From contig NZ_BLIN01000003.1 of the NCBI RefSeq assembly GCF_009811555.1, forward strand, positions 496,001 to 560,000: DNA of 64,000 bases, given 5' to 3'. The DNA comes from Streptomyces caniferus (GTDB lineage: Bacteria > Actinomycetota > Actinomycetes > Streptomycetales > Streptomycetaceae). Every line of letters begins with the position of its first letter. Position 1 is the stretch's first letter. Made by a program: the position numbers and the translations under genes. Positions 15,028 to 18,655 of the stretch are shown piece after piece. Below the pieces are notes generated by a model. That model was not told the origin of the DNA, made no database searches, and worked only from the letters and a program-made list of their open reading frames with translations.

Positions 15028-16812
<1,785 letters not shown>

Positions 16813-16851
16813 GCCACCCGCCCCACCGCACGGTCAGCACCTGCTGAACCG

Positions 16852-17166
16852 TCAACTCTCGCGACCCGGCCGCCGGTCCCCGGCAGCCGGGTCGCGGTGT
16901 TCTGCCGCGATCCCGAAGCGCCGCCGTTCGCCCGGAGCGGACGGGAGCTGCCGCACGGACGAGACCGTGCTGATCACCTGCTCGTCCTCCGAGCCCTCTT
17001 CACGCCGCCCCAGCTCTTCGAGTAGCTGCAGGTCAGCGGCGGACACCAGCGCGACCAGCGGCTTGCCGTGGCGGGTGACGACCACCCGCTCACCGCCGTA
17101 GACAACACGGTTGATCAGATCTGCCAGCTCCGCACGAGCTTGCGTCACCGGAATTTCGTAGGCCAT
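16852..17166 (-). CDS. orphan YefM/Phd-family antitoxin-like regulator
   Basis: A 104-residue protein. Residues 1-55 show the Phd/YefM DNA-binding fold: [18 protein letters not shown], then [14 protein letters not shown]. The tail (60-104) is Glu/Arg/Pro-rich and looks disordered, as in toxin-neutralising regions. No YoeB, Doc or PIN toxin gene follows: the next gene downstream is the convergent M28 peptidase. It is divergent from clpP with only 57 bp between starts, and that gap contains two TGTACA hexamers. It may act mainly as a repressor of itself and clpP (inference). Confidence 0.88.
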
Positions 17167-17180
17167 GCTCCCATTCTAAC

Positions 17181-17200
17181 GGGATGTACATCCTGTACAT
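17181..17200. promoter_or_regulatory. TGTACA repeat operator between antitoxin and clpP
   Basis: The 57-bp divergent region contains TGTACA at 17185-17190 and 17194-17199. Together they form the perfect dyad ATGTACA-N3-TGTACAT (17184-17200), and the left copy is itself inside a 12-bp palindrome (GGATGTACATCC). TGTACA is the published core operator hexamer of the E. coli YefM-YoeB system, so binding by the adjacent YefM-like protein is a natural prediction. Confidence 0.7.
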
Positions 17201-17223
17201 TTTTTACGGAGAGAGGAGCAGAC

Positions 17224-17859
17224 ATGCTGCGACCGACGGCCCGCTATGTCCTTCCGGAGTTCACCGAGCGCACCTCGCAGGGGACGCGCACCATGGACCC
17301 GTATTCCAAGCTGCTCGGCGAGCGGATCATCTTCCTGGGCACCCCGATCGACGACACCTCGGCCAACGATGTGATGGCGCAGTTCATCCACCTCGAACAT
17401 GCCGCGCCCGAGCAGGACATCTCGCTCTACATCAACTCCCCCGGCGGCTCCTTCACCGCGATGACCGCCATCTACGACACGATGCGCTTCGTGTCGTGCG
17501 ACGTGGAGACCGTCTGCCTGGGGCAGGCCGCCTCCTCCGCCGCGGTGCTGCTGGCCGCCGGCACACCCGGAAAACGACTGGCCCTGCCCGGCGCCCGGAT
17601 CCTGATCCATCAGCCGTCGTTCAGCGAACCGATCCAGGGACAGGCCAGCGACCTGCAGATCCAGGCGCAGGAGATGCTGCGCACCCGCGACCTGCTGGAG
17701 GAGATGCTGGCGCAGCACACCGGACAGCCCCGCGAGCGGATCGCCACCGATATCGAGCGCGACAAGATCTTCGATGCCCGCGCCGCCCAGGAGTACGGCC
17801 TGATCGACCAGATCACCCGCACCCGCAAGCAGTCGGCGCTCCAGCCCATGGCCCGGTGA
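17224..17859 (+). CDS. clpP: ATP-dependent Clp protease proteolytic subunit (paralogue)
   Basis: A 211-residue serine protease subunit with ATG 17224 behind GAGAGGAGCA. The catalytic triad is complete: Ser104 (Gly-Gln-Ala-Ala-Ser), His129 (Leu-Ile-His-Gln-Pro) and Asp180 (Glu-Arg-Asp-Lys). Asn-Ser-Pro-Gly-Gly-Ser (71-76) is the oxyanion strand. ClpP forms a double-heptamer barrel fed by ClpX/ClpC ATPases. Streptomycetes carry several clpP genes in pairs; here there is no second clpP or clpX nearby, so this is a solitary paralogue and cannot be given a number from sequence alone. Its stop overlaps the next gene (GTGA), and its promoter region holds the TGTACA dyad. Confidence 0.95.
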
Positions 17860-18173
17860 GTCCGATGCTGCCGCCCGAACCGCCGCCACTGCCCGCACTC
17901 ACCCGCGCCGAGGGTGAATTCATCGACAGCTATCTCGAAGTGATCGATCTGCTCGGCCGGATCAACCCGACCCGCGCCGCCGGCACCTACAGCGGGCTGC
18001 GCGCGGCCCAGGCGCTGGTCGGCAAGGCCACCCGGCTGCGGGACGCGCTGACACTGATGCACAGCCGGGGCGAGAGCGAGCTGCACTGCGCGACGCTGAC
18101 CCGGGCGCTGCGGGTGCTGGACGGCGAACGCCGGGCCGGACTCGTGTCGATGCCGCCACCCGAGGACATCTGA
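17856..18173 (+). CDS. hypothetical protein translationally coupled to clpP
   Basis: A 105-residue protein whose GTG overlaps the clpP stop (GTGA), implying coupled translation; an in-frame ATG at 17865 is an alternative. After a Pro-rich start it is predicted helical ([18 protein letters not shown], then a Leu-Arg-Ala-Ala-Gln-Ala-Leu-Val helix) with heptad-like Leu spacing, and no signal peptide or membrane segment. I do not recognise a family. The coupling suggests a partner or modulator of the ClpP paralogue, which is an inference. Confidence 0.72.
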
Positions 18174-18352
18174 CGCCCGACACACGGAGAGGCTGCGCAG
18201 ACGGCGTAGCGTCCGCACCCGATCTGAGGAGGCGACGAATTGCGCGGTGCGGGCACAATTCCCTCGGTCCCGGATGTTTCGCCGCTGGTCCGCGGGGTGC
18301 AACGCCCCGCACCGCGGCACCTGAGGGAACAAATCTAACCATTCGGGTCAAT

Positions 18353-18368
18353 TGTGACGCATCTCACA
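18353..18368. promoter_or_regulatory. perfect CRP-type palindrome
   Basis: TGTGA-CGCATC-TCACA exactly matches the canonical CRP site TGTGA-N6-TCACA. It lies about 290 bp before the NlpC/P60 start and upstream of the riboswitch, in the AT-richest part of the region, where a promoter would be expected. Confidence 0.72.
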
Positions 18369-18492
18369 TACGGCATTTTCAGCTCGGAATTCGGGTGCCG
18401 GGTGCGTGACGATCCCTTCGACGACAAGACCCCGCCACAGCGACGGGGCGGTCCGGACGGGCGCCTAATCCCGCCGCCGTGCCGGATGTCCG

Positions 18493-18636
18493 GTCGACGA
18501 TGTGGATCGGCGGGAGCGGAGGACCCGAGCAGGACGGGGTCCCGGCCGTCACGGCCGAGGGCTCCTTGGGGTGAAGTCGTATGCACGGCCGGGCATCTTC
18601 GCCTGCCCGAACCCGACAGGTCTTCCTTCGCAGGCG
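18493..18636 (+). promoter_or_regulatory. ydaO-type c-di-AMP riboswitch
   Basis: The conserved elements of the ydaO/yuaA aptamer appear in order: GGACCCGAG (18521-18529), GGGGTGAAGTCG (18568-18579), GGGCATCTTC (18591-18600), GCCCGAACCCGACAG (18605-18619) and TTCGCAGGCG (18627-18636). The aptamer ends 19 nt before the ATG, with the ribosome binding site (GAAGGG, 18642-18647) immediately after it. In streptomycetes this riboswitch class precedes cell-wall hydrolase genes and turns expression down when c-di-AMP is high. The 5' boundary is approximate. An Rfam covariance search (RF00379) would settle it. Confidence 0.82.
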
Positions 18637-18655
18637 GCTGACGAAGGGTTTGCGC

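Follow-up and report, generated by a model that had tools for sequence, protein, structure and literature searches.

Within the window, the whole 64,000-nucleotide stretch of Streptomyces caniferus DNA analysed here, a gene for an orphan Phd/YefM-family protein diverges from an accessory clpP, which is followed by a gene for a small conserved protein (Table 1). The sequence was re-read, giving the same coordinates and strands for yefM, the gap and clpP as the first-pass annotation. Profile searches bore out its description of yefM as an orphan: the gene is the sole PF02604 match in the genome, and a search of the genome for YoeB (PF06769) found none. The solitary state of clpP was likewise upheld, as the genome contains one other clpP pair and so three clpP genes in total.

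Table 1. Features of the yefM-clpP region, with positions in the window
Feature	Position	Strand	Evidence
Orphan Phd/YefM-family protein, 104 aa	16852-17166	-	PF02604 47 bits (cut-off 29.8), TIGR01552 match
yefM-clpP gap, 57 bp	17167-17223		Between divergent genes
Putative -10 hexamer TAGAAT of yefM	17173-17178	-	TANNNT conserved
Perfect dyad ATGTACA-TCC-TGTACAT (ATGTACATCCTGTACAT)	17184-17200	none	Sequence; pattern search of window and genome
Conserved element, here GTACATCCTGTACATTTTTTACGG	17186-17209	+	Consensus of 36 non-redundant loci; putative YefM operator, clpP control site
Accessory ClpP, 211 aa	17224-17859	+	PF00574 242.9 bits; S104, H129, D180 present
Small conserved protein, 102 aa	17865-18173	+	Predicted three helices; no known family

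The product of yefM carries a Phd/YefM antitoxin domain, with both PF02604 and TIGR01552 above cut-off. Its R11 and R32 align by position with R10 and R31 of E. coli YefM, and both residues were kept in all 117 distinct YefM sequences. A C-terminal motif around RFGIAA is also conserved, and an RFGIAA-like sequence was present in 105 of the 117. The structure model was poor (pLDDT 61) and had no PDB match at E ≤ 0.001. The clpP product carries a Clp protease domain (PF00574), and the solved chains nearest to it are named ClpP subunit 2 (for example, 5dzk).

Comparison of the best 80 of 396 YefM relatives, all from Streptomyces except four from Actinacidiphila and one from a metagenome-assembled genome, located clpP within the fetched stretch in 75 loci. 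Typically, urease genes and/or an M28 peptidase gene come first, followed by yefM, clpP, the small ORF and NlpC/P60, so that yefM has M28 peptidase or urease genes on one side and clpP on the other. The small ORF was seen in the same 75 of 80 loci, accompanying clpP in 75 of 75, and is probably co-transcribed with it. Its membership of the unit, suggested as a possibility at first pass, thus stood; the proposed GTG start overlapping clpP (17856) gave way to the ATG at 17865, 5 bp past the clpP stop, which is more likely given the length of about 102 aa in most of the listed homologues. The small protein has 1469 homologues, and the organisms named among 120 listed are Streptomyces. It had no Pfam or NCBIfam match, and its structure model (pLDDT 74) had no PDB match at E ≤ 0.001. 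L115 is a locus at which clpP was found without an adjacent small ORF. Further downstream, a c-di-AMP riboswitch (RF00379, 40.1 bits versus a cut-off of 38) lies at 18465-18651 on the forward strand, at the NlpC/P60 ORF (18581-19129); the first ATG of this ORF falls within the riboswitch, and the gene start is therefore probably further downstream.

The yefM promoter was read in 117 loci, with eight loci left out. A TANNNT hexamer begins 11 to 14 bp ahead of the yefM ATG in all 117, and the transcript is therefore probably leaderless. Of these loci, 84 have the conserved element next to yefM and 33 lack it there; where present, it spans about -37 to -20 of the yefM promoter, covering the spacer and the -35 region. 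A search for sigma-70-like promoters in 16800-18500 returned none, and the clpP promoter is otherwise unrecognisable. The reported ClgR motif and the PopR motif, the latter tested in part, were absent from 17167-17223. A match to the ClgR motif (GTTCGC-N5-GCG) at 16926-16939 lies inside the 3' part of yefM, a conserved coding stretch, and is probably due to chance; a match to part of the PopR motif lies inside clpP.

The GTAC element and its adherence to clpP

The perfect dyad in the gap, reported at first pass, is the sole match in the window at up to two mismatches, and 100 shuffles gave none. Among the matches listed for the 9.15-Mb genome, ordered by mismatches, TGTACA-N3-TGTACA had a single exact match; one further site with one mismatch lies inside a long reading frame resembling acetyl-CoA synthetase by eye. 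As a conserved unit the perfect dyad was ruled out, since a search of the 130 bp beside yefM found it in 11 of 80 loci, in one case with a shifted register. The conserved form is GTAC[G/A]TCCTGTACATTTTTTACAGA, in which the GTAC cores are spaced 9 bp apart. Its consensus was derived from sites with up to three mismatches, found in 117 of 129 stretches including the window and thinned to 36 non-redundant loci; this selection partly fixes the 18 core columns, while columns 19-24 are free of it. Three loci (L121, L124 and L196) contain extra GTAC cores at further 9-bp steps. An intrinsic terminator at 17179-17196 was also rejected: it was one pattern match, built on the window-specific GGATGTACATCC palindrome and not on the conserved form.

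The likeness to the E. coli YefM-YoeB operator noted at first pass holds for the TGTACA core and fails for the spacing, as the centres are 9 bp apart instead of 12 bp. In the excerpts of the published work used here, the E. coli operator core is TGTACA with centres 12 bp apart, R10 and R31 matter for binding, and a Streptomyces yefM-yoeB promoter also has its GTAC cores at 12 bp (PMC7730913, PMC3303803, PMC4803016). Given this published core and the roles of R10 and R31, with R11 and R32 kept here, YefM probably binds the GTAC element. The 9-bp steps may imply a different stacking of dimers.

Co-occurrence was assessed in 150 Streptomyces genomes, using E ≤ 1e-15 for yefM, up to one mismatch for the element and a strict threshold of E ≤ 1e-85 for clpP. 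The three were found in 122, 112 and 98 genomes, respectively, and were all absent at these thresholds in 28; the reversed control pattern of the element gave one match across all 150. The element never occurred without yefM (0/112), nor did a strict clpP match (0/98). Fisher's test for element versus yefM gave 2e-22, which is not a true probability because the genomes share kinship, and the co-occurrence may stem from common descent and an ancestral linkage. The absence of clpP without yefM is firm for strict matches alone, because 21 of the 24 yefM genomes lacking a strict match held a diverged clpP (in G032 in a second module only; in G161 as two frames); of the remaining three, G103 shows a deletion, G123 a fragment and G155 a contig edge. 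Some of the 28 yefM-less genomes may likewise hold a diverged clpP. Six genomes with a strict clpP match have the element only at two to three mismatches. Individual loci that kept yefM and the element without an intact clpP there (L096, L104 and L125), or yefM with neither (L193 and L194), were also found.

At up to one mismatch the element is single-copy in 111 of 112 genomes, and no wide YefM regulon was seen at this threshold; the lone second copy, in G074, lies beside a second yefM-clpP module. The resulting 113 sites fall into 71 next to both yefM and clpP, 21 next to clpP with yefM 73 bp to 347 kb away or on another contig, 12 next to yefM with no strict clpP match nearby, and 9 next to neither gene.

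In 34 read loci, intervening sequence separates yefM from the element, and the element adjoins clpP in every one (34/34). These comprise five loci with yefM far off, nine insertions, nine more, five with elements of two to three mismatches and six identified by coordinates. The usual yefM-element distance is 19-21 bp; in these loci it runs from about 40 bp (L063) up to 347 kb (G144), and in G048 the two are on different contigs. None of the 34 has GTAC-N5-GTAC in the 45 nt that precede yefM; this absence is partly by construction, because the loci were chosen that way, and it is the adjacency to clpP that is informative. A further 15 genomes are parted alike by coordinates only, and one plasmid locus (L209) shows the same arrangement. 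On the ClpP tree, in which 29 of 110 rows are parted, parting required at least 16 changes. The yefM -10 lies 6-7 bp from the element, while the element lies 14 bp from the clpP start in the window and further in most loci; random breaks would therefore more often split the element from clpP. An intact clpP split from an element retained by yefM was not seen, save in second modules (L095, L103 and L126). The element is thus best read as a control site of the clpP operon, and a role mainly as the operator or -35 region of yefM itself was ruled out, since it stays by clpP when the genes are parted and yefM retains its -10. At one parted locus (L086, 1138-12723), about 11.6 kb with several long reading frames, one cytochrome P450-like by eye, lies between yefM and the element, and the edges of this insert resemble those in the genomes of L087-L090.

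Second yefM-clpP modules were found in four genomes (G074, G032, G080 and G409). At L095, L103, L126 and L195 a yefM paralogue and element are accompanied by a clpP with an intact triad about 1 kb on and a small ORF. At L095, L103 and L126 the element and clpP are separated by a hydrolase gene, thioesterase-like by eye, as if that gene were first in the controlled operon. Among 296 genomes of the class, 24 held a yefM relative (E ≤ 1e-14), four of them outside Streptomyces, in two families. In three of the four, clpP adjoins yefM: two genomes from a single genus carry a lone clpP there and the third a pair; in the other (L189) clpP was not found within 12 kb. GTAC-N5-GTAC stands just upstream of yefM in three of the four. 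The yefM-linked clpP genes outside the genus differ from that of the window and come on top of at least one further clpP pair per genome. The occurrence of yefM with different accessory ClpPs argues for a functional tie, and the first-pass view of yefM, TGTACA element and clpP as one unit was supported by this synteny comparison: the unit is conserved across Streptomyces and echoed outside.

Our main reading, to which we assign a probability of about 0.57, is that the YefM-like protein is a former antitoxin that would now serve as a regulator dedicated to the accessory clpP and the small gene, binding DNA and most likely repressing them. This reading is drawn from sequence comparison. The placement of the element in the yefM promoter suggests repression; the alternative role would be that of an activator or co-regulator of clpP.

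It seems unlikely that the element instead forms the core promoter of clpP or serves a different regulator, with YefM a neighbour engaged in some other job. Such a function would fit the way the element follows clpP and not yefM in the parted loci, and the lack of another recognisable clpP promoter in 16800-18500. It would leave unaccounted for that no element was found without yefM, even in genomes where the two are unlinked, that the element core is that of the known YefM operator, and that outside the genus GTAC-N5-GTAC again accompanies yefM, beside other clpP genes; moreover, the ClgR and PopR motifs, as given in excerpts of PMC9775585 and tested in part for PopR, are absent from the 57-bp gap.

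A toxin-antitoxin-like set is more doubtful still. Here ClpP or the small protein would take the toxin's place and bind the YefM C-terminus, as a co-repressor or as a neutralised partner. The retained RFGIAA-like motif, the absence of a toxin gene adjacent to yefM, the constant company of clpP and the small ORF, and the potential of a triad-less ClpP to poison mixed rings are compatible with such a set, against which stand the frequent distance of yefM from the clpP-small ORF pair, the lack of a solved-structure match for the small-protein model, the L115 clpP without an adjacent small ORF and the fact that no toxicity or complex is known.

Recurrent loss of the ClpP catalytic triad

The window ClpP has a complete Ser-His-Asp triad (S104/H129/D180). 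For the triad comparison, identical sequences and ORFs outside 0.6-2x the query length were removed, which left 110 rows: the window and 109 distinct sequences, three of which come from second modules. Of these rows, 63, the window included, keep the triad intact; the other 47 have lost it through a wide variety of replacements. The ClpP tree, from which the triad columns and those adjacent to them were excluded, requires at least 10 changes for this loss, at least six of them forced by well-supported branches. The other main pair, taken to be ClpP1 and ClpP2, kept its triads in 30 of 30 sequences from 15 genomes picked for a triad-less copy. Three ClpP relatives that are not yefM-linked (L154, L157 and L159) read Gly at the aligned His position (SGD), reflecting either an inactive ClpP or an alignment slip.

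In genomes with five clpP genes, the yefM-linked clpP is the one outside the two pairs. In S. lividans, five clpP genes have been described, with clpP5 monocistronic and the pairs under the control of PopR and ClgR (excerpts of PMC9765437). By that placement, the window clpP, in a genome with three clpP genes, is probably 'ClpP5'.

The repeated loss of catalysis, set beside a near-unchanged control element, suggests a structural or regulatory role for the subunit. A tentative extension, which we hold possible but not probable, is that a dead, ClpR-like ClpP and its small helical partner would tune or poison the ClpP1P2 ring, with the domesticated antitoxin and its operator as the switch, giving control by subunit swapping instead of added proteolysis.

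The triad losses also bear on how YefM might be removed. Excerpts of PMC6521030 describe another Streptomyces YefM, expressed in E. coli, that was stabilised by loss of Lon and not by loss of ClpP or ClpX, and ClpP1P2 substrates such as ClgR are reported to need a terminal AA (excerpts of PMC9775585), an ending found in none of the 117 YefM sequences. Lon is thus the better candidate for removal of YefM. The feedback loop of the first-pass annotation, in which YefM represses clpP, the same ClpP degrades YefM and clpP is induced, draws on the intact triad of the window ClpP, on the reported degradation of S. cattleya RelB2 by ClpP proteins (PMC4989188, in part) and on that of PopR and ClgR by ClpP1P2 (PMC9765437, in part), yet is very improbable, given the triad missing from 47 of 110 relatives while ClpP1 and ClpP2 keep theirs, the Lon dependence of the related YefM, the lack of an -AA ending, and the latch that would result if a repressor were degraded by the enzyme under its repression.

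A proposed mechanism and its relation to known systems

A mechanism can be proposed for the YefM-like protein as a dedicated regulator. YefM dimers would use their N-terminal Phd/YefM domains to contact the GTAC repeats at their 9-bp spacing. In loci with adjoining genes, these repeats span the yefM -35 and spacer as well as the clpP promoter region, and both genes would be held down; where the genes are parted, yefM would be freed of the element and its product would act on clpP in trans. Loss of YefM by proteolysis, for which Lon is favoured, or its capture at the C-terminal motif, may then turn on clpP and the small gene, and the ClpP product may join or modify Clp rings.

The module resembles the yefM-yoeB operons of E. 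coli and of S. lividans and S. coelicolor (SCO2235/2236) in its Phd/YefM domain, both key arginines and GTAC-core promoter palindromes, and, like yefM-yoeB in Streptomyces and E. coli, it has a divergent neighbour (PMC3303803, in part). It differs in that the genome lacks YoeB, the centres are 9 bp and not 12 bp apart, and the element follows clpP and not yefM.

As with PopR and ClgR, a clpP operon would be under a dedicated regulator. PopR and ClgR belong to a protein family other than that of YefM. In the present module YefM has no AA ending and the gap has no ClgR or PopR motif, whereas PopR and ClgR are described as activators that use other motifs and are ClpP1P2 substrates with a terminal AA (excerpts of PMC9765437 and PMC9775585). 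The window clpP is like S. lividans clpP5 in being solitary and, in genomes with five clpP genes, in having its counterpart outside two pairs; unlike clpP5 as described in excerpts of PMC9765437, it is followed by a small ORF, and those excerpts name no clpP5 regulator. Cyanobacterial and plastid ClpR resemble the triad-less relatives in being ClpP paralogues that lack the catalytic triad (PMC4673316, in part). ClpR is described there as an inactive subunit of mixed rings, whereas here the loss recurs within one gene group in which many members, including that of the window, are intact.

A literature search, covering titles and abstract openings with few subscription journals, found no report of YefM control of a clpP. 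The operators of yefM-yoeB and the five clpP genes of S. lividans were already known; what is new here is the proposal of a domesticated antitoxin as regulator of an accessory ClpP. To our knowledge, the roles of orphan antitoxins are largely open. The locus makes such an antitoxin and the fifth ClpP of Streptomyces testable against each other: the element is single-copy, nature supplies mutants with yefM and clpP apart, and the active site is present in some relatives and missing from others. The locus also offers a protease subunit whose catalytic function has been lost repeatedly under a control element that has barely altered.

In a check of 16 genomes, a further element was found before a dehydratase-like gene, exact in G007 and with one mismatch in G010. 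At L091:3022 (exact) and L092:12978 (one mismatch) the element lies 24 bp upstream of the ATG start codon of a gene that by eye resembles an NAD-dependent dehydratase; this gene sits beyond the urease cluster at both loci and is a possible second target.
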